This document shows, in pieces, positions 3,163-25,486 of a DNA stretch of 52,801 nt; position 1 is the first letter of the stretch; every line of letters begins with the position of its first letter. The DNA comes from Corallococcus terminator. GTDB taxonomy: Bacteria > Myxococcota > Myxococcia > Myxococcales > Myxococcaceae. The notes below the pieces were generated by a model that saw only the letters and a program-made list of their open reading frames with translations, did no database searches and was not told the origin of the DNA. The DNA lies in NCBI RefSeq assembly GCF_003611635.1, contig NZ_RAVZ01000015.1, positions 1 through 52,801 on the forward strand, read 5' to 3'. The translations under genes were made by a program, and so were the position numbers.

Positions 3163-5448
3163 ATGTTCCGTGCCCGTGCTCCCTGGTGGCTCCTGCTCGG
3201 CGTCTTGCTGCTCCTTGGTGGGTGTCGCTGTGGCGACGACTCCAACGTGGGCGGTGCGAGCGCCAGCTTCCGGCCGCAGGAGACGGTGGTGGACTTCGGC
3301 CGGGTGCTGGAGGGCACGCAGGTGCGCCGCTCGCTGACGCTGGTGGCCACGGGCCGCGCGGGCGTCGAGGTGGCGGCGGTGACGGAGAGTCCCTTCTTTG
3401 TCGTCGTGTCCCAGATTGTGGTGTCGGGCAGCGGCACGGGGACGGTGGACATCCTGTTCTCCGCGGGCAACACGCCGGTGGAGGGCGAGCTGGTGCTCAC
3501 CGCGGGCCGCACCACGGCGACCGTGAAGCTGACCGGCGTGGGCGTGCGTCCCCTGGCGTGCCTGCCAGAGGGCGAGTGCCGCGAGTCGCGCTTCGACCTG
3601 GACTCGGGGCAGTGCATCGAGTCCCCGCTGGCTGACGGCGCTTCGTGCATCCCCGGCAGTCGCTGCCAGGAGAACGGCCGTTGTCAGGCGGGCGCCTGCG
3701 TGGGGCAGCCGCGCACGTGCAACGACGACAATCCGTGCACCGTCGACACCTGTTCGCCGACGCAGGGCTGTGTGACGACGAGCGTCGCGTGCCCCGTGCC
3801 GCGCGACCCGTGCAAGGTGGGCGTGTGCGACCGCAACCAGGGGTGCACGGTGGTGGACGTCGACAACTTCACCCCGTGCGGCGCGCTGAGCTGCAAGGAG
3901 GCCCGGGTCTGCATCAGTGGCAGTTGCCGCGCTGTGACGCCGCCGGACGGCTTCGTCTGCGCGCCCGCCACACCGTGCCAGGGAGAGGGCACGTGCAGCG
4001 CGGGCGAGTGCATGCGCCCGGACGCGGGAGACCTGGTCGCGCTCTTCAGCGCGGAGCTGGGAGGCGAGCCCATCGCGGAGGACGGCGGGCCGGTGCTGCT
4101 GGTGGATGACGGGACGGTCTACGCCTCGGTGTGCGGAGGGGACGCGGGCTGCCGGCTCGCCGCGTACACGGAGAGCGGACTGCTGCGGTACGAATCGCCG
4201 TACGAGGATGGAGGCGCGCGGACGTTGCTCGCGGCCTCGGACGCGGGCGTGGTGGTGCTCGCACCGGAAGCGCTGGAGGCGTATGCGCCCCGAGGCGCAG
4301 GGGCGTTGCGCTGGCGCGCGTCGCTGGCCCTCTCCGACGCGACCCTGGATGGAGGCGTGCAGGAGGGAGTGCCCGGCACGGGCGCGGGCCGTGTGGCGCT
4401 CACGGTGGAGGGGAACGTGCTCACCCACGTCACGTGGAGTGAGGCGGCTCCGGACGCGGGCGATGACGCGGGCACGGTGCGAGAGCCCCTGCGCTCCAGG
4501 CTCGCGTTGTTGAGCGCGGAGGCGGGCACGCCGCTGGCGCTGGGGCCCGAGGAGGACGGCGGTGGCGCGGCGAGGCTCGCCGTGGACGACACGCGTGGCG
4601 CGTACCTCTACACGCCCTGGGATGGACGGCTGGCCTTCACCTCCTGGGAGACGGCCTCCGTGGACGCGGGCCCTGCACTGGATGCAGGTGCGGTGCGCGG
4701 TGGCGAGTTCGCGCTGTATGCCCCGGCACCGAGCGACAGCCTCACGGCATGGCCCGCCTTCGGTCCCTCCGCGCTCGCGGATGGAGGCATCGGGGCCCTG
4801 GGCCTTGAAGTGCTCGACGCCGGTGTGCCGGGAGGCGCGCCTTCCCTGGCCCTGGCTTCAGGGCAACTGCTCGTGGGAGCGCGGGCCTTCCTGGACACGG
4901 ATGGCGGCGTGCCTGTCGCGCTGGACTGGGATGGGGGCCTCCGCACGCTGTCGCCTCTCGACGGGCCCGTGCTGGTGACGCCCGGAGGCTCCGTGGGCCA
5001 TGCCTTCGCGCGCGCGTGTGACCGCACGGATGGCACCCCATGCGCCGCGGAGGAGCTGCGCACCGTGCTCCGCACCTTCAGCTTCGATGACGGCCACGCC
5101 CTCTTCGAAGTGGACGCGCTGCCTTCTCCGCTGCTGCCCGGCACCCTGCATGAAGCCGCGTTGATGGAGTTCGGCACCGTGAGCGTGCTCGCGGACGCGG
5201 AGCTGCCCAACGGACAGCGACAGGCCTGGCTGGAGTGGATCAGCGCCGGCTCCAAGGTTGGCATGTGCGCGCTGCCGGGCCGCGTGCAGGTGGCGGGCGC
5301 GGCGTTCGCGGGCGAGGTGCTGCATGTGGCGCTCCAGCGCGACGGGGTCTGGCTCCTGGAGTCCTACCCCGTGGGCCATCGCGCGGAGACGCGGGGCTGG
5401 CCCCAGCGGAACGCCAGCCCGTCGGGGACGCGCCGGGCGGTGCCGTAG
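3163..5448 (+). CDS. Large Cys-rich lipoprotein with HYDIN/ASPM-like domain
   Basis: A 761-residue predicted lipoprotein. The signal peptide is MFRARAPWWLLLGVLLLLGG with the lipobox LLGGC. After it, about residues 30-120 resemble an ASPM/SPD-2/HYDIN immunoglobulin-like domain (VVDFGRVLEGTQVRRSLTL, later VDILFSAG). About residues 130-285 form a Cys-rich block with repeated C-x-x-x-x-C spacing (CNDDNPCTVDTC, CKVGVCDRNQGC), as in many myxobacterial surface proteins with putative metal-binding or EGF-like repeats. The remaining 450 residues are rich in 'DAG' and look like a beta-propeller or outer-surface scaffold with no identified active site. Function is unknown. It ends 15 nt from the convergent chemoreceptor gene. 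Confidence 0.8.
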   Translation: MFRARAPWWLLLGVLLLLGGCRCGDDSNVGGASASFRPQETVVDFGRVLEGTQVRRSLTLVATGRAGVEVAAVTESPFFVVVSQIVVSGSGTGTVDILFSAGNTPVEGELVLTAGRTTATVKLTGVGVRPLACLPEGECRESRFDLDSGQCIESPLADGASCIPGSRCQENGRCQAGACVGQPRTCNDDNPCTVDTCSPTQGCVTTSVACPVPRDPCKVGVCDRNQGCTVVDVDNFTPCGALSCKEARVCISGSCRAVTPPDGFVCAPATPCQGEGTCSAGECMRPDAGDLVALFSAELGGEPIAEDGGPVLLVDDGTVYASVCGGDAGCRLAAYTESGLLRYESPYEDGGARTLLAASDAGVVVLAPEALEAYAPRGAGALRWRASLALSDATLDGGVQEGVPGTGAGRVALTVEGNVLTHVTWSEAAPDAGDDAGTVREPLRSRLALLSAEAGTPLALGPEEDGGGAARLAVDDTRGAYLYTPWDGRLAFTSWETASVDAGPALDAGAVRGGEFALYAPAPSDSLTAWPAFGPSALADGGIGALGLEVLDAGVPGGAPSLALASGQLLVGARAFLDTDGGVPVALDWDGGLRTLSPLDGPVLVTPGGSVGHAFARACDRTDGTPCAAEELRTVLRTFSFDDGHALFEVDALPSPLLPGTLHEAALMEFGTVSVLADAELPNGQRQAWLEWISAGSKVGMCALPGRVQVAGAAFAGEVLHVALQRDGVWLLESYPVGHRAETRGWPQRNASPSGTRRAVP

Positions 5449-5463
5449 CGCGACGGTGGGCGG

Positions 5464-8400
5464 TCAGCCGCCCGCGCTCGGATCCACCCACAGGTCCTCG
5501 AAGCGCACCTGGGGCGGCGTCTGGTGCAGCCGCAGGTTCTGCACGGACGCCACCGCGGCCACGTGCGTACGGTCGTGGTACAGCGGGATGAGCGGGCAGT
5601 CCTCGCGCGCCAGCATCTCCGCGCGCCGGTAGAGCTGCGAGCGCAGCTCCGGATCGATGGACACGCGCGCTTCGGCGGTGAGCCGATCAAACTCCGGGTT
5701 GCGGTAGCCCAGCGGGTACACCGTCTGCGCGTTGGAGTTGAGCAGGAAGTGCAGGAACACGTCGGGGTCCGGGAAGTCCGCCAGCCACATCGTGCGGAAG
5801 GCCGGGACCCTTCCTTCACGCAGGCGCGGCAGGTACTCCTCCGGGCTCATCTGCACGTGCCGCAGCTCCAGCAGCCCCGCGTGGATCAACGGGCGGAAGA
5901 GCACCGCGTCCTCGGCGGAGGTGTCGCGGCCCACGGGATGGTGCAGCGTGAGCTGCAACCGGCGCACCCCCGCCTCGCGCAGCAGGCGCTCCGCCAGCCC
6001 CAGGTCCGCCGTGGGCGCGGGGCCCAGCTCCGCGCCATCCAGCAGCTCCGGCGGCGTGAAGGTGCGAGCCACCCGGGCCCCCGGATGGAACTGCTCCACC
6101 AGCCCCTGGATGTCCATGCCCGCGCGCAGGGCCCGCCGCACGCGCACGTCGTTGTAGGGCGCCTCGTTCAGGTTGAGGCCCACGAACGCGGTGGAGGGCG
6201 TGGTGCTGGCCACAAGCTGGTGCAACTCCAGGCCCTTGGCCTCCGTGTGCTCGGTGGGCAGGAAGGACACGAGGTCCAACTGTCCCTCCAGCATCCGGCG
6301 CACCGCCAGGGGACGCGACTCCATCAGGTGGAACTCCAGCCGGTCGAGCAGCGGAATGCCGCCGCGCCAGTAGCCCGGGTTGCGCTCCAGCACCACGCGG
6401 TCCGGCTCCAGGCCCACGACGCGGAACGGGCCCGTGCCCACCAGCTTCCCGGAGGAGTCCACCTTCGCCACCGCGGTGGCCGTGAGCGCCATCAACTGGA
6501 GGAAGAATGCCTTGGGCTCGCGCAGGCGGATTTCGAGCGTGCCCTCGTCCAGCACCTCGATGCCCGTCACCTCACGCGCCAGGCCCTGGGAGTACTCCGG
6601 CGCGCCCTCCACGTCCTCCAGCAGGCTGCGGTCCGGCGAGCGCACCGCCGGGTCCATCAACCGCTCCAGGTGGTGCTTCACGTCCAGCGCGGTGAGCATC
6701 GTCCCGTCGTGGAAGGTGACGCTCCGGCGCAGGTAGAAGCGGTAGCGGCGCGCGGAGGGGTCGGCATCCCAGCGCTCGGCCAGGTCGGGCACCAGCACGC
6801 CGTCCTCCAGCCGCACGAGGCTGGAGAAGACGCACGCCGACAGCTCCGCCATCTGGTTCTCCACGCTGAACAGCGGATCCACCGCCTGCCGGTTGCGCAG
6901 GGACGCCGCCTGATGCAGCCCCACGCGCAGCATGCCGCCCGGGCGCGCCTGCGGAAGCTGGAAGCGGAACACCTCCGCCTCCAGGCTCGCCGTCTCGTGG
7001 CTCAGTTGATCCACCGTGCGGTCCAGCCCGTCGCCAATGCGGATGACCCGGCGCGCGTCCTCGCGCACCTGCGCCACCTCCTCGCGGATGGAGGCATCGC
7101 CCCGGGTGAGCACCAGATGGGCCTGCCGCAGCTCTTCAATGGCCGCGCTCAGCCGCATCACGGCCTCGGACAGGTCGCGGCCGGTGCGCGCCTGCGCCTC
7201 CGCCTTCTGCGCGGCGCTCTGGCCCACGCGCCCCATCTCCTGCATCTGGCGCACGAGGTCGCGCGCGTTGCCGGACTGCTCGATGGCCATGCGCGTGATG
7301 TCTTCCACGCGGCGGGCCACGCGCTGGCTGGCTTCCACGACGGTGGCGCCCTGCGCCTCCAGCCGCTGCGTCTCCGCGACGGTGGCCTCCACGGCGGCGA
7401 AGGTGCGCTGGGTGATGGTGCGGATCTCCCCCAGGGCCCCGGCGGCGCGGTCGCCCAGGGCCACGCCCGCGGTGGCCTGCTCGCGGCCCTCCTGCACCAG
7501 CGCCACGGCGGTCTCCACCGCGTCGCGGATGCCGGTGACCATGGTGCCAATCTCGCGCGTGGAGCGCGTGGTGCGCTCGGCGAGGCTGCGGATCTCGTTG
7601 GCCACCACGCCGAAGGGCCGGCCGTGTTCCCCCGCCTGCGCGGCGATGATGGCGGCGTTGAGGGCCAGCAGGTTCGTCTGGTCGGCGATCTCCTGGATGA
7701 CGTCCACGATGCGGCCAATCTCCATCGACCGCGTGCCGAGCATCTCCATCAGCTCGGCCGCCTTGCGCACCGTCTCCTCCACCCGGTACATGCCCTGCAC
7801 GCTGTCGCCCACCAGCGCTTCGCCCCGCTGGGCGGTGGCCGTCACCGCGAGCGCCATGCTGTTGGTGTCCGTGGCGCGCCGTCGCACGGCGTCGATGCCG
7901 CCCTCCACCAGCCCGACGAACTCCGTCGCCTCGCTGGCGAAGCGGCCCAGCTCGTCACCCGCCGCGGCGATGTGGCCCAGCCGCTCCGTCATGTCCTGGA
8001 TGAGGGCGCTGGTGCGCTGGCTGAAGTCGTTGACGGTGGTGAGGCCGTCCACCACCTGGTGCAGCCGCTCGGTCATCTCCAGGAGCGCGCCCGTCGTCTC
8101 GTGCGCGAAGGTCTCGATGTGCTGCACGCGCTTGACGGCCGTCTGGAGGCTGGTGCCGTTGCCGGCCACGGCGGTGAGCGTGCGCTCCACGGCGCCGCCC
8201 TGTCGCCGCGCGGCCTCCAGCAGCACGCGGGCCTGGTCGCTCACGCCGTTGCCGGTGCGGTGCAGGTTGCTCGTCACGCGCTGCACCTGGGACATGGCGC
8301 GGCGCAGGGAGAGGATGAGGCGGCGCAGGTCCTCCTGGCCCTCGAAGCCCTGGTGGATGGGTGTGGTGAGGTCGCCCTCCGCGAGCCGGGCCATCAGCCC

Positions 8401-8610
8401 GCGGCGCTCCCGCCTTCGCGTCGCGGCCCAGCGGAACCACGCGAGGTAGCTGCCCGACAGCCACAGGAAGGGCACGCCGAAGAACAGCACCGCCCAGCCG
8501 GCCGGGTCATCGGGTGAGCCCGTCACCCAGCGCAGCATCAGTCCCAGCAGCAGCGCGGAAACCAGGGCCGCCGCCAGCCCGAACGAGAAGAGGTACCGTT
8601 TGGCGCCCAT
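5464..8610 (-). CDS. Chemoreceptor (MCP) signalling domain fused to an OppA/DppA-type substrate-binding domain
   Basis: A 1048-residue fusion. Two membrane segments (about 8-27 and 40-60) enclose only a ~12-residue outer loop, so there is no periplasmic sensor. A HAMP-like linker (about 61-115) leads into a long coiled-coil MCP domain (about 120-550) whose hairpin tip is QTNLLALNAAI at 311-321. Residues about 558-1040 are a family 5 extracellular solute-binding domain (peptide/nickel type): LRVGLHQAAS, FHDGTMLTALDVKHHLERL, GTGPFRVVGLEPDRVVLERN, and LADFPDPDVFLHFLL. By topology this binding domain should be cytoplasmic with the signalling domain. At the tip, the usual E and R of NAAIEAARAGE are I322 and Q325. 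No Che gene is nearby. No good ribosome binding site precedes the ATG at 8610. Confidence 0.9.
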   Translation of the reverse strand: MGAKRYLFSFGLAAALVSALLLGLMLRWVTGSPDDPAGWAVLFFGVPFLWLSGSYLAWFRWAATRRRERRGLMARLAEGDLTTPIHQGFEGQEDLRRLILSLRRAMSQVQRVTSNLHRTGNGVSDQARVLLEAARRQGGAVERTLTAVAGNGTSLQTAVKRVQHIETFAHETTGALLEMTERLHQVVDGLTTVNDFSQRTSALIQDMTERLGHIAAAGDELGRFASEATEFVGLVEGGIDAVRRRATDTNSMALAVTATAQRGEALVGDSVQGMYRVEETVRKAAELMEMLGTRSMEIGRIVDVIQEIADQTNLLALNAAIIAAQAGEHGRPFGVVANEIRSLAERTTRSTREIGTMVTGIRDAVETAVALVQEGREQATAGVALGDRAAGALGEIRTITQRTFAAVEATVAETQRLEAQGATVVEASQRVARRVEDITRMAIEQSGNARDLVRQMQEMGRVGQSAAQKAEAQARTGRDLSEAVMRLSAAIEELRQAHLVLTRGDASIREEVAQVREDARRVIRIGDGLDRTVDQLSHETASLEAEVFRFQLPQARPGGMLRVGLHQAASLRNRQAVDPLFSVENQMAELSACVFSSLVRLEDGVLVPDLAERWDADPSARRYRFYLRRSVTFHDGTMLTALDVKHHLERLMDPAVRSPDRSLLEDVEGAPEYSQGLAREVTGIEVLDEGTLEIRLREPKAFFLQLMALTATAVAKVDSSGKLVGTGPFRVVGLEPDRVVLERNPGYWRGGIPLLDRLEFHLMESRPLAVRRMLEGQLDLVSFLPTEHTEAKGLELHQLVASTTPSTAFVGLNLNEAPYNDVRVRRALRAGMDIQGLVEQFHPGARVARTFTPPELLDGAELGPAPTADLGLAERLLREAGVRRLQLTLHHPVGRDTSAEDAVLFRPLIHAGLLELRHVQMSPEEYLPRLREGRVPAFRTMWLADFPDPDVFLHFLLNSNAQTVYPLGYRNPEFDRLTAEARVSIDPELRSQLYRRAEMLAREDCPLIPLYHDRTHVAAVASVQNLRLHQTPPQVRFEDLWVDPSAGG

Positions 8611-8675: not shown

Positions 8676-9716
8676 ATGAAGGCCCTTCTCGCCGTCGCCA
8701 TGCTGGCGCTCCAGGTAAACCCCGCCAGCACAGGGGCCGCGAGCGGGGAATCCGTCCGTTTTGTCTTCGCGTGGCGCGGCGTGCCGGTGGGGACCGTCTC
8801 GCTGGCCCTGGACGCGGGGCGCTTCGCGTACACCAGCCGGCACCTGCACGTGCGCGAGGGCCGCGCGGGCGAGCGGGTCCGCGAGGTGACCCTGGACGTG
8901 GATGCCGCGGGGCGCGTCGTGGGCGCGGACGCGGTGCCGCAGGCGCTGTGGCTGTGGCAGGGGCCACCGCCCGAGGGCTGCGTGAAGGGCCGCGAGGAGC
9001 TGTCCGGCCAGGAAGGTCCCCACTGCGTCACGTCGCGAAGTCCCACGAGCGCCGAGGGCACGATGCTGGGCGCGCGCTTCCGCGCGGACTACGACGCGCA
9101 AGGGAGGCTGCGAGCGCTGGACGTGGGGGAGTCCCGCTTCACGGTCGCCGCGCCGGGAGAGCGGCTCAGGACCCCGCCGGAGCTCTTCGCGGCCGGCGTG
9201 CCCGTGGAGGGCGGCACGCAAGGCGCGCTGAAGTTGCTCCCGAGCGGGCAGGCTTTACGTCCCACGGCGCCCGTCCCCGAGCGCCTGCCGGACATGACGA
9301 CCTGGACACCGGACGCGGCCCGGGCGCTCTCCCGGAAGGTGCACGCGGCCTTCCCGGACAAGGGCCCTACGGCGGCGGACTGGCGCTCGGGAGGGGAGGG
9401 CGAGGCGGGAGGGTGTCTGGCCCACGCGCTGCGCTTCGCCGCCCTGGCGCGCGCCAACGGCCAACGGGTGGGCCTGGTGCATGGCCTGCTGGTGGTGGAC
9501 GGTGGCCCCGCGCGTCCCCATGCCTGGGTGCGCGTGGCGCTGCGGGGCGGTGGCGTGCTGGACCTGGATCCGACGTCGTTGGATCCGGTGCGCTCGGACA
9601 CGCACCTGCCGCTCGCGCTCGTTCCTCCTGAGGGCCCCGGCCTGGAAGCCGGGGAGCGCTGGCTGTCGCTCCTGCGCGGGGAGTGGCGCGTGGTGCGTGC
9701 TACTCGAAGGGAATGA
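8676..9716 (+). CDS. Secreted transglutaminase-like protein
   Basis: A 346-residue protein with a short signal peptide (MKALLAVAMLALQVNPAST). The C-terminal 100 residues carry the transglutaminase-like (papain-fold) triad order Cys-His-Asp: GGCLAHALRFAALARANG, then RPHAWVRV, then LDLDPT. The family acts as a protease, peptidase or acyl-transferase; the actual substrate is unknown. The N-terminal 220 residues are beta-rich and match no family I can name; they may bind the partner or substrate. It is divergent from the chemoreceptor gene (65 nt between starts), and its last 17 nt overlap the end of the convergent astA gene. Confidence 0.75.
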   Translation: MKALLAVAMLALQVNPASTGAASGESVRFVFAWRGVPVGTVSLALDAGRFAYTSRHLHVREGRAGERVREVTLDVDAAGRVVGADAVPQALWLWQGPPPEGCVKGREELSGQEGPHCVTSRSPTSAEGTMLGARFRADYDAQGRLRALDVGESRFTVAAPGERLRTPPELFAAGVPVEGGTQGALKLLPSGQALRPTAPVPERLPDMTTWTPDAARALSRKVHAAFPDKGPTAADWRSGGEGEAGGCLAHALRFAALARANGQRVGLVHGLLVVDGGPARPHAWVRVALRGGGVLDLDPTSLDPVRSDTHLPLALVPPEGPGLEAGERWLSLLRGEWRVVRATRRE

Positions 9717-10725
9717 TGGACAGCTTCGCGCCGGTCTTCACTTCGAGGATCTCCTTGGCGCGGGCTGGCAGGGAGATGGTGGTGTTGTCCAGCCGGGCAT
9801 GGCAGCGCACGGAGCGGAAGCGGTTGCGGCCGGACTCGCGCTCGGCGGCGACGAGCACGTCGTCCCCCTCCAGCTCGAAGTCCTCGTCCGTCAGCTTCAG
9901 CGTGCGGTAGCGGCGCACCAGGGAGATGTCGGCCGTGTTCGCCTCGAAGTGCGGGCCGCCGTCGAACGGGTCGATGCGCTCCACGTACCGGAAGCCCACC
10001 CGCTCCAGCATCCGCTGCACTCCGCGCGTGGCGGGGCCCACTTCACCGAGCACCTTCTGCACGCGGTCCGGGAACAGCGAGGCGTAGATGTCCGACGAGG
10101 GGAACAGCTCCTTGATGAACTCCTTGTTCTGGCGGCTCAGCCGGTCGGCCTCCAGGTAGGTGAGGCCGGTGAACTTCTTGCCGCAGGCCTCCCACAGGAG
10201 GCTGCGCCCGTCCGGGAGCAGCGGCGGCAGCAGCTCCGCCAGGATGCGCGGACGGAAGATGCGCCGGTGCATGGAGATGAAGAGGAAGCGCACGAAGGAC
10301 AACTGCTTGCCGGGCTTGTCCGGCGTCGCGCGGTAGGGCGGGTCCACCACCAGGCCGCCAATCTCCGTGGGGCCCTCGTAGTTGTACGCGATGGACAGCA
10401 CCTTGTGCCGCAGGTGGCGCTCCAGCGAGGCGGAGTAGTGCTCCCGCTCGCTCACCTCGTAATAGATGTGCGGCGCTTCGTAGGTGCCGTGCTGGGCGAT
10501 GATCATCGACGTGCCGATGATGAGGTTGTTGCGCACGTCCTCCAGCACGAACAGGTACTCGCGATCGAACGGGTCCTTCACCCGGCCCGCGAAGCTCTTC
10601 ACCGACTTGTCGATGATGGCCTCGAGCGTCTCCTCGTTGTTCGGCAGGTTGACGGTGTTCAGCACCGCGGCAAGACGCTTCAGGCCGGGCAAGTCGGTTT
10701 TCTGGACGTCTCGCAGCACGAGCAT
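9700..10725 (-). CDS. astA: Arginine N-succinyltransferase family protein (AstA)
   Basis: A 341-residue GNAT-fold enzyme of the AstA family, which moves a succinyl group from succinyl-CoA to arginine or ornithine, the first step of the AST arginine degradation route. Family features seen are the opening MLVLRDVQKTDLPGL, GTSMIIAQHGTYEAPHIYYEV, GPTEIGGLVVDPPYR, and LGEVGPATRGVQRMLERVGF. Length fits the family (about 340). The start is ATG 10725; an upstream in-frame extension lacks family similarity. No other ast gene is adjacent, so in this organism it may act alone or with genes elsewhere. Its 3' end overlaps the convergent transglutaminase-like gene by 17 nt. Confidence 0.88.
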   Translation of the reverse strand: MLVLRDVQKTDLPGLKRLAAVLNTVNLPNNEETLEAIIDKSVKSFAGRVKDPFDREYLFVLEDVRNNLIIGTSMIIAQHGTYEAPHIYYEVSEREHYSASLERHLRHKVLSIAYNYEGPTEIGGLVVDPPYRATPDKPGKQLSFVRFLFISMHRRIFRPRILAELLPPLLPDGRSLLWEACGKKFTGLTYLEADRLSRQNKEFIKELFPSSDIYASLFPDRVQKVLGEVGPATRGVQRMLERVGFRYVERIDPFDGGPHFEANTADISLVRRYRTLKLTDEDFELEGDDVLVAAERESGRNRFRSVRCHARLDNTTISLPARAKEILEVKTGAKLSIIPFE

Positions 10726-11074
10726 GGGGCACGCAGGGGGCACCCCGGGAAGGGAGCGCCGGAAGGGTCCGCGACCATACACCACCCCCCCGGGCCGTCA
10801 GCCTCCTGCATGCTCCCCTGTCAATGACGCGTTGCGTTCAGGACACCGCTCCCCCGTCCGCTCGGTGGGTACGGGTGGGCCGTTCCCGACGTGAAACATG
10901 TCTCAAACGGACCAGGGCTCGGCTGCCCGCATGCCCTATTGTCAGGCATGTTGGAATGAACTTGAGAGGGAATGAAGTGGGGGAATGACTTGAGGTAGTG
11001 TTTGTCGAAACTTTGACGGCAAAGTTTTTTGGCTCCCCTGGCTGGTCCCCCCAACCTCCCTCAAGGATTCATCA
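10726..11074. other. 349-nt intergenic region between divergent astA and the polysaccharide lyase
   Basis: No gene is seen. The region holds an inverted repeat CATGCC/GGCATG (10930-10950, 9-nt spacer), three copies of GGAATGA at 10953, 10969 and 10982, and a terminator-like hairpin at 11008-11030. The last 150 nt are visibly richer in A and T than the neighbouring genes, as expected for a promoter and leader serving the lyase. No confident -10/-35 pair could be chosen. Confidence 0.5.
11008..11030 (+). terminator. Hairpin with T run in the lyase leader (possible attenuator)
   Basis: AAACTTTG and CAAAGTTT form a perfect 8-bp stem with an ACGG loop, followed directly by further T residues: the form of an intrinsic terminator on the plus strand. 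No plus-strand gene ends nearby (the last one ends at 9716 and a minus-strand gene lies between), and the lyase start is only 44 nt downstream. It may therefore end or modulate transcripts entering the lyase gene. The stem has only two G-C pairs, so strength is uncertain. Confidence 0.45.
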
Positions 11075-16016: not shown

Positions 16017-16071
16017 GCAGAGGGTGGAGTTGAAGGAGCCTGTGTTTCCGTGCGAGGAGAGGAGGCTCCTC

Positions 16072-16878
16072 GTGCGAATGCCCCCGATGCTGACGTGGCT
16101 GTGGTGTTGCCTGCTGCTGACCGCATGCGCGGGTGCGCAACTCAGCGCGCCCCAGAGTTATTCGCAGACCCTGGACTCCGCGACCCGCGGCTGCCTGCAC
16201 CACCCGGGCTGTGCGAGCCAGGTGGGCCAGGACGCGATCCTCCCGTGGCTGGCGAGGGCTGTGGGAAGGGCAGGACAGGCCGCGGCGATGCTGCGCCTGT
16301 GGGAGGCCGCGGAGGTGGCCCACGTGGAGCGGGTGCTGGTGGAGTGCGCGAAGGAGGCGAACTTCCAGGTGAACGAGCGGCTCCTGGGGAAGGGAGGACG
16401 GACCTCGCCGGAGCTGTGCAGGAAGCCGGTGGACCTGAAGGCGCCGGAGGTGACGTGGGGGATGAAGCTGGGGGAGGAGAAGCACGCGGCGGCGCTGGAG
16501 TGTGTGCAGCGGGTGCTGGGGGCCACGGACGCGGGGCGCTTCAGCCTGGAGCCGCGCTACCTTGTCGATGCGAAGACGGGGCGGACGCGGTGGCTGGATC
16601 CGAGGGATGTAGCCCAGTGGCTGGCGGACGGACAGTTCCACCTGCTGTTGGGGAGCATCGTCCCGGATGTGGTGCTGCACGCGCTGGGGAATCCCCTCAA
16701 GGTTCAAAGGGTCTACGACTTCAAGTTCCCCTGTCCTGTCACCAACTCGCCGAGCTGGAACGAATACACCTCTGGGCACACCTTCGAAAAAATGAACCAG
16801 GGTTCTGCGTATCGGAAGGTGCTGGGCGAAAAGCTGGAGCCACGGATGGTCACCCCGAATCAAGGTGTCACGCCATGA
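16072..16878 (+). CDS. Lipoprotein with PD-(D/E)xK nuclease motif, putative toxin (copy B)
   Basis: A 268-residue near-duplicate of the lipoprotein at 12220. It has the same signal and lipobox (LLTAC, Cys19), the same P198-D199 and D216-F-K218 (VYDFKFPCP), and the same Cys positions (GCLHHPGCAS, ELCRKP, LECVQ). Differences cluster in the first 70 residues and after KFPCPVTN, where copy B has QGSAYRKVLG and ends VTPNQGVTP, closer to the expected end of this nuclease-toxin family than copy A. The start is GTG 16072 behind GAGGAGAGGAGG. The stop overlaps the immunity start as ATGA. It begins 55 nt after the LysR gene. Confidence 0.7.
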   Translation: MRMPPMLTWLWCCLLLTACAGAQLSAPQSYSQTLDSATRGCLHHPGCASQVGQDAILPWLARAVGRAGQAAAMLRLWEAAEVAHVERVLVECAKEANFQVNERLLGKGGRTSPELCRKPVDLKAPEVTWGMKLGEEKHAAALECVQRVLGATDAGRFSLEPRYLVDAKTGRTRWLDPRDVAQWLADGQFHLLLGSIVPDVVLHALGNPLKVQRVYDFKFPCPVTNSPSWNEYTSGHTFEKMNQGSAYRKVLGEKLEPRMVTPNQGVTP

Positions 16879-17795
16879 CCGAGCGGTATCCGAGGATACG
16901 AACCGTCATCGACATCGAAGGTGAGCAGATCACAGTCCTTCGGGAGGGCATCTTCATTGCGTTCTACATGCCCGGCTTCCATGGAGAAGTGGCTTCCGCT
17001 GTAGAGCATTCGCTGGAGAGATACCTTCATGCCCTCCGCCCCAAGGCGCTCGGTGCATACGTCGACGAGCACGGCTATTGGCGAACGCTGGACGCGGAGC
17101 TGACGATCCTTCGGCAAAAATTGAGGGATCCTCGTGGGGCCTACATCACGGCGCGAGGTCAGCCTGACTCCGTGACGGGTGTAGGATTCTATTATCAGGG
17201 GCATGCCACCCTCCCGTTGCTGTTTGCTCGGGACCCTCCTCAAGCCATGTGTGCGGTGGAGTTCTGGCTGCCAACCGAGTTCCTGGAGCAACAAGGAGCG
17301 GAGGTGGCACGCTCGCTGATCACCTCGTTGGGGCAAGACCTGCCCTTCAGCTCGGGATACGCAGGGCTGTCTTTCGAGACATGGGGCTGGATGGATGCCA
17401 CCACTCCAGTCCTGCGCGCACGCAGTCTGCGACACCCGGGCTTCGACTTGCCGGTGTCGCATTCATTGGCCTTGTACATGTCACTGGGCACGAAGGTCCG
17501 CGCTCCTGCGTGGCTCACCTTCCTGGGCCCACCGGTGTTGAACGAACTGGGCGGAGCCGAAGGACTGCGCTCCCGGCTGCACTCGCCAGGAACCGAGGTC
17601 CACTCCCTGTCCACGGACCGCGCGGTGGTGTCCCTGGGCCCGGAACCCGAGGCGGGGGACCTGGAGGCCGGTGACACGCTTCCGCACTACCGTGAGCTGG
17701 CCCGCGTGCTGGAGCCCTGGCGCTACGTCCACAAGGGTTCGTGGGGCTCACTCGCGGAAGAGGAAATCCGCCACTGGGAGCGCCGCTTCCTCTGA
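16875..17795 (+). CDS. DUF3396-like (type VI immunity family) protein, putative immunity (copy B)
   Basis: A 306-residue paralogue of the protein at 13020. Shared landmarks are IDIEGE, PDSVTGVGF, CAVEFWLPTEFLE, HPGFDLP, WLTFLGPPVLNELGG, RAVVSLGPEPEAGDLEAGD and RHWERRFL at the end. It starts inside the toxin gene's stop (ATGA overlap). Residues 1-210 are roughly half identical to copy A, the rest roughly 85% (counted by eye). Lower GC in the first 600 nt suggests that this part came from another source. Its presumed job is to protect the cell from the copy B lipoprotein. Confidence 0.75.
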   Translation: MTERYPRIRTVIDIEGEQITVLREGIFIAFYMPGFHGEVASAVEHSLERYLHALRPKALGAYVDEHGYWRTLDAELTILRQKLRDPRGAYITARGQPDSVTGVGFYYQGHATLPLLFARDPPQAMCAVEFWLPTEFLEQQGAEVARSLITSLGQDLPFSSGYAGLSFETWGWMDATTPVLRARSLRHPGFDLPVSHSLALYMSLGTKVRAPAWLTFLGPPVLNELGGAEGLRSRLHSPGTEVHSLSTDRAVVSLGPEPEAGDLEAGDTLPHYRELARVLEPWRYVHKGSWGSLAEEEIRHWERRFL

Positions 17796-23001: not shown

Positions 23002-24906
23002 CTAGACGCGCCAGACGCCGGCCACGGACTCCATCCGTTCGGCCACGCCGCGCAGGGTGTGCGCCATCCGCTGGGTGCCCTGCGTGGCCTGGAGGGTGTC
23101 GTCCATCATCCCGGACAGGTCGGTGACGGCGGTGAAGATCTGCGCGATGCCCGCGTTCTGCTGGATGACGGCGGCGGCGATCTGCTGGGCCGCTGACGCG
23201 TTGTCGTGGATGATCTCCGTCAGCGCGCGCAGGCTCTGGCCGCTGGCGTGCACCTGGGCGAGTCCCTCCTCGGAGCGGCGCTGGCCTTCTTCCGACAGCG
23301 CCACGGTGGCGTGGATGCCGCCTCGGATGTCGTCCAGGATTTCGCGCACCCGGCTGGTGGCCTGGATGGACTGGTCCGCGAGGCTGCGGATTTCACGCGC
23401 CACCACGCTGAAGCCCTTGCCGTGCTCGCCGGAGCGCACCGCTTCGATGGCCGCGTTGAGCGCGAGCATGTTGGACTGGTCCGCCAGGTCCTTCACCGTC
23501 TGGGTGATGCCGCCAATCTGACGCGTGCGCTCGTTGAGCGAGGAGACGCCTTCGGCGAAGCGCACCCCGTGGTCGCGCAGTTGTTCGAAGCCGCCCAGGC
23601 TGGCCTGGAGCGTCGCCTCTCCGGCGCTGCCCACCTCGCGCGCCCGGGACACCAGTCCGAGCACCGCCTGGGAGCGATCCGCGGCGAGCTGGGAGGTCTG
23701 CTGGATTTCCTGCGCGGTGACCTGCGTCTCCTGGAGCGCGGCGCTCTGCCGGGTGAGGTTGCGCTCCTGCTGCTCCGTGGCGCGGGTCAGCTCCGCCACG
23801 GTCTGCCCCAGCACCCGGGTGCCCTGCTGGAGGCTGGCGGTGGATTCACGCAGGTGATCCATCATCCGCGAGAAGGCGGAGGCCAGCTCCCCCACTTCGT
23901 CCTGACGTCCGTGCAGCGCCACCTTCTGGGTGAGGTCGCCTTCGCGCACGACGCGGGACACGAGGCCGCTCAGCGTGGTGATGGGCCGCGTCACGCCGCG
24001 CGCCAGGGCCCAGGCGGCCAGGATGGCCAGCAGCAGGAGCGCGACCACCGCGAGGACGCTGAGCTTCAGGAAGCTCCTCAGGGGCTGGAAGGCCTCCTCC
24101 GCGTCCATCGCCGCGACGAAGCGCCAGTGGCGGCCCGCCTCGGCGAGCTGGGGGGCGTCGAAGGCCTGCGCCCGCACCGTCCGCGACGGTTCCGGGACGC
24201 CCTTCGCCCTGGAGCTGTAGAGCTGTCCGCCGTCCCGGTCGAGGATCTCCAGGGTGAAGCTGCGCTGGCCCCGCTCCTTCGAGCGCTGGAGCGCGCCCGC
24301 GACCACCTGCTCCAACTGGTTCCAGTCATACGCCGCCAGGAGGACGCCCACGCGCGCGCCGGAGATGGGGCTGAGCACGGGCAGCGCCAGGGGCATCACC
24401 GGGCGGCCGAAGAAGGGGTCCGTCCGGGTCAGCGCGGCGGTGAGGATGGCCGGGTCCAGGCGGTCCTTCAGCGCGGCCTGGAACCACGGCGAGGCGAGCA
24501 CCCGCGCCTCATGGCCCTCGAAGGCTTCGCGCAGGCCAGGGCGGCTGACGGAGACCACGCGGCCGTCCTCGGTGAACAGCACCAGCCCCGCGAAGCTCTC
24601 GTGGCGGCCGTTCAGGGTGGCGAGCACCGCGTCGCTCTTCGCGTAGGTGCCGAACAGGAGGGCGCCGCGCACGATGGCGTCCTCCGTCCACGCGCGGGCG
24701 TTCGCCTCCCGCTCCTGAAGCGACGACTCCACCAGGTCGCGCAGCCCTTCGGCCTCCACCTGGAGGACGCCCTGGACCTGCTGCTCCACGGTCCGCCGGA
24801 TGACGTGGATGCCCGCCGCGAGGACAGGCGTGAGCGCGGCGACGAGCAGCAGGCACACCCACAGCGTGAGGCGACCCCTCAGTTTCAAGCCGGACAGCAG
24901 GCGCAT
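23002..24906 (-). CDS. Methyl-accepting chemotaxis protein with double-Cache-like sensor
   Basis: A 634-residue transmembrane chemoreceptor. TM1 is about 12-34, a periplasmic sensor of about 245 residues follows (double-Cache-like: LVLFTEDGRVVSVSRPGLRE, SPISGARVGVLLAAYDW), TM2 is about 281-301, HAMP about 302-355, then the signalling coiled coil with tip DQSNMLALNAAIEAVRSGE (about 476-494). The tip keeps the usual Glu and Arg, unlike the receptor at 5464. It lies 28 nt downstream of a secreted single-sensor protein and probably works with it. Start ATG 24906 sits at the natural signal-anchor start; the ribosome binding site is weak, suggesting translational coupling. Confidence 0.9.
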   Translation of the reverse strand: MRLLSGLKLRGRLTLWVCLLLVAALTPVLAAGIHVIRRTVEQQVQGVLQVEAEGLRDLVESSLQEREANARAWTEDAIVRGALLFGTYAKSDAVLATLNGRHESFAGLVLFTEDGRVVSVSRPGLREAFEGHEARVLASPWFQAALKDRLDPAILTAALTRTDPFFGRPVMPLALPVLSPISGARVGVLLAAYDWNQLEQVVAGALQRSKERGQRSFTLEILDRDGGQLYSSRAKGVPEPSRTVRAQAFDAPQLAEAGRHWRFVAAMDAEEAFQPLRSFLKLSVLAVVALLLLAILAAWALARGVTRPITTLSGLVSRVVREGDLTQKVALHGRQDEVGELASAFSRMMDHLRESTASLQQGTRVLGQTVAELTRATEQQERNLTRQSAALQETQVTAQEIQQTSQLAADRSQAVLGLVSRAREVGSAGEATLQASLGGFEQLRDHGVRFAEGVSSLNERTRQIGGITQTVKDLADQSNMLALNAAIEAVRSGEHGKGFSVVAREIRSLADQSIQATSRVREILDDIRGGIHATVALSEEGQRRSEEGLAQVHASGQSLRALTEIIHDNASAAQQIAAAVIQQNAGIAQIFTAVTDLSGMMDDTLQATQGTQRMAHTLRGVAERMESVAGVWRV

Positions 24907-24934
24907 GGGAGCATCCAGGGGAGCGGTGAGCGGA

Positions 24935-25486
24935 TCAGAGGTCGAGCAGGGACAGGCCCACGGTGAGCGCGCCGATGACCTGGGCGCCGTCGCGGACCGG
25001 AAGGGAGACCTGGATGACGTAGGCCTGCGAGGACTCGTCGAAGAAGGGGGCCTCCCGCAGCTCCGGTCCGCCCCGGCCCCCGGCGTAGGTGAGGCGCCAC
25101 TTGTCCTCGTCGCCCTGCCAGTAGTCCGACGTGCGCCGGCTGGCGCAGACCAGCGCGCCCTGGCCGTCCATGGTGAAGGCTTCCGCCATCGCCTGGCCCA
25201 GCCGCTTCTGCGCCCGCTGGAGCGCGCCCGTGCACGGAGCCTCCAGCACGGTCTGCTTGAAGGGCGTGAGCGCCGGGGTGGCCATCCACTCCGCGTCGTG
25301 ACGCTGGAGGGTGGTGAAGGGCATGCGGCGTGCGTTCTGGTCACGAATGGCGCGCACCACCTCCGGGTCGCCGGCCAGCCGTCGCAATTCCGGCATCACC
25401 GCGTCCACCTTCCGAAGTTGCGCGGCACCGTCCGGAGGCAGCGTCCCCCAAGACGCTACCGCCAATCCCATCCAGAACATGGACAT
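24935..25486 (-). CDS. Secreted PDC/Cache-type sensor protein
   Basis: A 183-residue protein with a probable signal peptide (MSMFWMGLAVASWG) and then a single Cache/PDC-like domain: a long helix (RDQNARRMPFTTLQRHDAEW), beta strands around GQGALVCASRRTSDYW, and the closing AYVIQVSLPVRDGAQVIGALTVGLSL typical of the last Cache strands. There is no membrane anchor after the signal, so it should be a free periplasmic sensor or ligand-binding subunit. ATG 25486 is supported by GGGGGAG 5 nt upstream. It is cotranscribed with the chemoreceptor downstream and may present ligand to it. Confidence 0.7.
   Translation of the reverse strand: MSMFWMGLAVASWGTLPPDGAAQLRKVDAVMPELRRLAGDPEVVRAIRDQNARRMPFTTLQRHDAEWMATPALTPFKQTVLEAPCTGALQRAQKRLGQAMAEAFTMDGQGALVCASRRTSDYWQGDEDKWRLTYAGGRGGPELREAPFFDESSQAYVIQVSLPVRDGAQVIGALTVGLSLLDL

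Follow-up and report, generated by a model that had tools for sequence, protein, structure and literature searches.

Family-5 solute-binding proteins are normally exported; what might one do when it is joined to the end of a chemoreceptor, and on which side of the membrane would it lie? The question is raised by a gene at positions 5464–8610 (minus strand) of the 52,801-nucleotide stretch of DNA analysed here, from the soil bacterium Corallococcus terminator (contig NZ_RAVZ01000015.1; hereafter the window). The gene is by sequence comparison the orthologue of mcpK (MXAN_6456) of Myxococcus xanthus. We consider it somewhat better than an even bet that McpK is a membrane-anchored internal sensor, putatively of a short peptide or amino-bearing metabolite, built on the rod of a methyl-accepting chemotaxis protein (MCP) of the McpJ type.

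A chemoreceptor continued by a solute-binding domain

A single open reading frame runs without interruption from ATG to TGA and encodes a protein of 1048 amino acids (aa), in which two N-terminal membrane helices are followed by an MCP rod and then by a family-5 solute-binding domain (SBP). All of the features below lie on the minus strand. Helix 1 (8530–8592, residues 7–27) and helix 2 (8434–8490, residues 41–59) correspond to helices 2–30 and 36–77 in an AlphaFold model, and lead into a HAMP-like stretch (8338–8433, residues 60–91, '..MARLAEGDLT..') that faces the HAMP region of the McpJ-type receptor described below. In the model the MCP domain is a helix-turn-helix hairpin whose packing is of low confidence. 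Its arm descends through 7636–8337 (residues 92–325; model helices 92–201 and 212–325), reaches a tip marked out by orthologue conservation ('NAAIIAAQAGEHG', 7621–7659, residues 318–330) and returns through 6970–7620 (residues 331–547; model helices 331–443 and 460–547); the Pfam MCPsignal match spans 7321–7851 (residues 254–430, E 3.7e-33), well above its curated cut-off. A linker (6946–6969, residues 548–555) with neither a membrane segment nor a signal peptide then connects the rod to the SBP (5467–6945, residues 556–1048), where SBP_bac_5 (PF00496) matches residues 606–961 with E 3.7e-61 and 207.7 bits against a curated cut-off of 32.4. The Pfam scan of McpK matched neither HAMP nor a periplasmic ligand domain, and no N-terminal helix-turn-helix (HTH) domain of the kind found in the SgrR family. 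The opposite strand also holds long frames, such as 5524–8517 (997 aa), as is usual for GC-rich DNA.

This layout is widespread among relatives. A search of 195 genomes of the phylum (matches at E ≤ 1e-55) found McpK in 92, which by row count comprise 88 of the 96 genomes of the window's own family, one each from families f6 and f7 and two from f10. One match spanning at least residues 67–1042, with rod and SBP in one frame, is present in 85 of the 92; three of these (G039, G091 and G145) were flagged with one TGA, and G039 and G145 read in an uninterrupted frame. Six genomes gave only partial matches (G046, G049, G054, G129, G136 and G146), each with at least one piece starting no more than 18 bases from a contig end; in G129 only residues 534–1042 are seen, so that the fusion itself is not visible there. 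In the remaining genome, G098 (locus L064, about position 4345), the gene occupies two overlapping frames that switch near residue 555, at the linker. We treat this split, whether an error or natural, as an exception; a one-frame match is present in 26 further genomes of its genus, g19. Both Pfam domains were recovered in all McpK rows scanned, namely five relatives and the protein of M. xanthus AM003, to which the window protein is 77% identical over 1046 aa (L044). A sequencing error or a chance join of two genes, which an earlier note on this DNA had named as a possible source of the fusion, is thus ruled out by conservation across relatives: the MCP-then-SBP order persists down to 35–38% identity.

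Beyond the phylum set, a scan of genome contigs returned 14 loci, of which 13 are of McpK type (eight Corallococcus, three Myxococcus, one Myxococcaceae metagenome-assembled genome and one titled Comamonas) and one is an SBP-only match in a Chloroflexota metagenome-assembled genome; the scan looks for short exact peptides, and distant fusions would escape it. Among plasmids, none of 1660 matching records held 80% of the query in one place. Because the contig scan misses distant fusions and the phylum search covered 195 genomes, McpK-type fusions may also exist outside these relatives. At the locus titled Comamonas sp. KCTC 72670 (L039), McpK is 77% identical to that of the window and the neighbouring genes are as similar as at Myxococcus loci; probably the record is mislabelled or its assembly is mixed. 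In genus g3, four of six genomes (G043, G044, G046 and G047; partial in G046) each have two McpK matches, 63–70% identical to the window protein, perhaps through duplication.

The rod, its tip and the McpJ type

The genome contains 25 MCP places, one of them a fragment and the other 24 with a readable tip. In 22 of the 24, a Glu is followed three residues on by Arg or Lys; Ile plus Gln occurs solely in McpK and in a receptor on contig C325. We followed the McpK tip through 62 orthologue rows (50 distinct, with McpK from the window included), 23 of which make up alignment A1. I322 is present in 62/62 rows and Q325 in 61/62 (Gly in one row), I321, A326 and G327 are found in 23/23 rows of A1, and residues 300–350 around the tip average 87% identity among orthologues. 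We take E385 and R388 of Escherichia coli Tsr to be the counterparts of the altered tip positions.

Among the listed M. xanthus receptors, the C325 receptor (702 aa, HAMP 205–251, MCP 396–583) best fits McpJ (MXAN_5907; 723 aa, HAMP 203–275, MCP 431–640; PMC3945109), an assignment made on length and domain positions only. These same features led us to reject its identification as DifA, as did the place of the dif operon on another contig, C5. Eight further McpJ-type sequences from other genomes carry Ile or Leu plus Gln at the tip. The likeness to McpK extends along the whole rod: the C325 receptor is alignable over McpK residues 73–552, including 415 consecutive residues free of gaps, and the eight other sequences have longest ungapped runs of 256–415, their alignments likewise ending at residue 552. 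The C325 receptor terminates there, its '..EVRRFRV' facing EVFRFQL of McpK ('..EVFRFQLPQARPGG'), whereas McpK runs on into its SBP. The McpJ type differs from McpK in lacking the SBP and in having a larger N-terminal part with a HAMP domain that Pfam recognizes. In a tree of the tip region, McpK (support 95/98) stands beside the McpJ type (90/84, moderate and below the 95 mark). McpJ-type receptors are also present in genomes with no McpK match, as checked for G025 (family f3) and G041 (family f6), which suggests that McpK may have derived from such a receptor that gained an SBP.

The earlier note suggested that the receptor signals to a Che array, a suggestion made tentative by a tip altered at two positions that the other receptors of this genome keep. 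The altered tip raises the possibility that McpK, and McpJ with it, does not drive a kinase, acting instead as a modulator or decoy in mixed clusters or through a dedicated partner. Every McpK and McpJ-type row read has Ile or Leu in place of Glu, and Gln, or the single Gly, in place of Arg or Lys, set against the Glu and Arg/Lys retained by the bulk of this genome's receptors; the rest of the McpK tip is, however, as highly conserved as described above. We regard this explanation as doubtful.

A second possibility, which we judge unlikely, is that McpK works with DifA in the Dif pathway and feeds exopolysaccharide control. McpK and DifA are assigned to the same heptad class, 44H, and the same tree group in PMC3945109, which places McpK in the Dif pathway. 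In the genome studied here, the dif operon (contig C5, L092) encodes an MCP, a CheW of 140 aa, a response regulator of 122 aa and a CheA of 832 aa; the CheW and the regulator are as long as DifC and DifD of M. xanthus, and DifE there has 857 aa (PMC3945109). The DifA of this genome has an ordinary tip, NATIEAARAG, and its local alignment with McpK contains 61 gap columns and a longest ungapped run of 68, with low identity and loosely placed gaps. The length of the McpK rod matches the McpJ-type receptor, not DifA. The next branch of the tip tree beside McpK and the McpJ type does pair DifA with another long-branched receptor (81/69, weak), but DifA is itself a long branch, and the tree therefore says little about it. 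Neither tip, alignment nor tree thus supports DifA as the nearest relative of McpK, despite publication, and the published Dif link is weakened by these sequence comparisons. A closer kinship of McpK to McpJ than to DifA would bear on how the 21 M. xanthus receptors are wired to kinases. Of 26 CheW-domain matches in the genome, none lies on the contig of McpK (C66), making mcpK an orphan gene.

The solute-binding domain and its side of the membrane

Sequence and predicted structure both place the SBP closest to peptide binders. The closest solved sequences are 8upi, OppA, AapF, MppA and others that bind peptides, and the best Foldseek matches of the predicted fold are the peptide-binding proteins 8upi, MppA, YliB, OppA, AapF and DppA; lower down, both searches also list family members that bind nickel, haem/glutathione or opines. 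Alignment with OppA, together with orthologue conservation, marks out a peptide-site motif, R939..W942-x-x-D945-x-x-D948-x-D950 (5761–5796), in which R939, W942 and D945 face R413, W416 and D419 of OppA (1b05; numbering derived from the printed alignment). A docking and simulation study of OppA reports that D419 and W416 touch the residue at the start of the ligand and R413 the one at its end (PMC6305025). Across the orthologue rows, W942, D945, D948 and D950 are invariant (62/62) and R939 is kept in 61/62; a more distant sequence, L110, has the same W..D..D. The best reading is that the putative ligand is a short peptide or another amino-bearing metabolite. The earlier note's suggestion that the receptor senses internal peptides or another internal ligand is thereby made plausible, in that positions contacting peptide in OppA are kept.

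The SBP could alternatively have ceased to bind ligand and become a structural or protein-interaction domain, and it does diverge faster than the MCP domain: mean identity in the orthologue alignment is 0.60 versus 0.73, and in each of five orthologue pairs the ratio of nonsynonymous to synonymous substitution rates (dN/dS) is higher for the SBP than for the MCP domain. This ratio nevertheless remains below 1 in all five pairs (0.23–0.53), and the peptide-site positions are kept across family-level divergence, which makes loss of binding an improbable explanation.

Five places in the genome exceed the SBP_bac_5 cut-off, McpK included. Three of the other proteins start, as judged by eye, with a lipoprotein-type signal and the fourth is weak; the SBP of McpK starts from a coiled coil. 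A second candidate SBP fusion in the same genome (contig C175, a 1334-aa frame) was rejected, as by eye it consists of an ordinary lipoprotein-type SBP and then permease-like frames in a long GC-rich frame.

Several lines of evidence from sequence and predicted structure point to a cytoplasmic SBP in McpK. First, the only membrane-type segments are residues 7–25 and 41–59 (Kyte–Doolittle means 2.27 and 1.55; next best 1.22), and across the orthologue rows the medians for this pair are 2.21 and 1.62. The loop between these helices has only about 13–15 residues, and McpK therefore has no periplasmic domain, as the earlier note had said. Second, Lys4 and Arg5 precede helix 1 and six Arg fall within residues 60–70, behind helix 2; with positive charges flanking both helices, both ends of McpK would be expected inside. 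Third, hydropathy over residues 431–575 peaks at a 19-residue mean of 1.05 across the 62 orthologue rows (median 0.71), and no export signal appears in these rows between rod and SBP. Fourth, in the best of five AlphaFold models (mean predicted local distance difference test (pLDDT) 71.9, predicted template modelling score 0.55; the other four 59–64) the rod turns at 326–330 and the SBP begins at about residue 556, with pLDDT mostly 80–96 and with no further helix or membrane segment between the two. The claim that no further membrane segment separates the MCP domain from the SBP thus held in both the orthologue rows and the model.

Beside the published placement with DifA, the following points weigh against an internal peptide sensor. 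Asp, Trp and Arg at the motif positions are common in the SBP family and hence no proof of a peptide ligand; the conserved motif speaks more strongly for a functional binding site than for peptides specifically. Parts of the modelled rod are of low confidence (pLDDT below 50 at residues 175–236 and 420–479), and its geometry is untrustworthy. Table 1 of PMC3945109 gives M. xanthus McpK three TMHMM helices, an odd number that would put the SBP outside. A rod stretch, residues 354–372, is moreover fairly hydrophobic in Myxococcus-type sequences, with a mean of 1.43 in L044; the value in L023, 2.13, exceeds that of helix 2 in the same protein. This stretch is above 1.6 in 3/62 orthologue rows and has a median of 1.18. 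Because it lies inside the signalling domain, just after the tip, we take it to be a false helix and infer that it accounts for the third helix of the published table. The very hydrophobic form in L023 (residues 353–371 of that protein) comes from one genome, G108, of genus g19.

A periplasmic SBP, reached through a third helix before the domain or by inverted insertion, would agree with the published helix count, the hydrophobic rod stretch of some relatives and the usual export of the family, but it is made very improbable by the absence of a hydrophobic segment over 431–575 in the orthologues or in the model, by the modest median of a stretch internal to the MCP domain, and by positive charges lying where the cytoplasmic side is expected. 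An MCP rod must also be cytoplasmic to reach CheA and CheW. The cytoplasmic location proposed in the earlier note is accordingly favoured by two helices and the positive-inside pattern, with the one published table as the point to the contrary.

Proposed mechanism, known systems and neighbouring genes

We propose that McpK is a McpJ-type rod extended at its C-terminal end by an SBP of the Opp/Dpp type without an export signal, anchored in the inner membrane with its sensor C-terminal and cytoplasmic. The SBP would close on a short peptide inside the cell or on some other metabolite bearing a free amino group, supplied, for example, by peptide import, protein turnover or cell-wall recycling. 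Judged by its length, the returning arm would reach back close to the membrane and the HAMP-like region, where the linker of about eight residues would tie the SBP to the base of the rod. Closure of the lobes could then bend or tighten the returning arm by pulling on it, and the resulting shift in the state of the tip would pass to a CheA kinase or to mixed receptor trimers, with McpJ as the likeliest companion. The analogy behind this arm-pulling mechanism is with CZB and other C-terminal ligand domains.

A bolder and distinctly speculative version makes McpK a gauge of peptide inside the cell, which, through a tip that only McpJ shares, reports peptide uptake or recycling to a myxobacterial Che pathway and so couples feeding and starvation to development, with McpK and McpJ forming a separately wired class with its own trimer interface, outside Dif. 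If the SBP works inside the cell, a family-5 binding protein of a kind that captures its ligand outside would have been recast as an internal gauge connected to chemosensing, tying the behaviour of predatory, fruiting bacteria to their supply of peptides.

Known systems share parts of this arrangement. CZB-type chemoreceptors, of which TlpD is an example, also carry a sensor after the signalling domain; CZB is a small zinc-binding domain, whereas the domain in McpK is a family-5 SBP, large and two-lobed, and the protein also has a membrane anchor. OppA, DppA and MppA share the fold and the peptide-site positions of the McpK SBP, but they are exported and serve uptake; the SBP of McpK has no export signal and no importer gene among the neighbours scanned. 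SgrR and DsvR, which are transcription factors composed of HTH and SBP_bac_5 domains (PMC13060122), likewise employ a family-5 SBP within a regulator that acts inside the cell; they differ in having a DNA-binding output and no MCP, and the match of McpK to the SgrR model is weak (E 8.7e-8). Chemoreceptors with a C-terminal ligand domain are described in PMC7390727 as a recognized, poorly characterized group with at least 17 domain types, SBP_bac_5 perhaps among them. The domain order that the earlier note called unusual is therefore only partly so, since ligand domains behind the signalling domain are already recognized and McpK itself was tabulated in 2014.

That record, in PLoS Genetics (PMC3945109), lists McpK as MXAN_6456, an orphan of 1048 aa with MCP at 246–463 and a 'Bacterial extracellular solute-binding proteins domain'. 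The window protein agrees with it in length, MCP-then-SBP content and orphan status, with no difference in kind; the published entry has three helices and a Dif association, as against two helices and a McpJ-like rod here. The main text of PMC3945109 mentions McpK five times and the word 'periplasmic' not at all, and does not say which side of the membrane the SBP faces. No motility defect is recorded there for deletion of mcpK, McpK is not one of the five receptors named as lacking a deletion defect, and at least 13 mcp deletions are reported to affect fruiting; by elimination, mcpK would belong among these. McpK is also outside the ten GFP fusions described there as having clear localization. 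In the same text, McpL appears both under deletions with a motility defect and under those without a defect.

PMC3945109 was the sole paper found that names McpK of Myxococcus; 'MXAN_6456' gave no literature match and no published study of the MCP-then-SBP layout was found, in a search that excluded supplements and most subscription papers. The accessible text of PMC6194562, on chemosensing in Corallococcus, has no occurrence of 'solute' or 'SBP'. The name and domain content of McpK were thus already in print, to which the present analysis adds the topology argument, the conservation of the peptide site, the spread of the gene and its McpJ-type kinship with the shared tip.

The near neighbours of mcpK encode a radical SAM protein, a Cys-rich protein, a transglutaminase-like protein and an AstA-type arginine N-succinyltransferase (9700–10785, minus strand); a plus-strand frame overlapping the last of these (9481–10827) is probably spurious. 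No chemosensory gene is found among these neighbours, and a scan of 22 frames of the window detected no gene for a partner ATP-binding cassette permease beside mcpK. The transglutaminase-like gene is retained at 22 of 34 loci and astA at 18 of 34, with flanks that vary in length; AstA gives no clear hint.

Elsewhere in the window, a second chemoreceptor gene (23002–25344, minus strand; a 780-aa frame) encodes dCache_1 (just over its cut-off), HAMP and MCPsignal domains, and has an ordinary tip. A plus-strand gene at 16050–17795 encodes a C-terminal TsiV domain (type VI secretion immunity for VRR-NUC) preceded by about 315 aa without a Pfam match.

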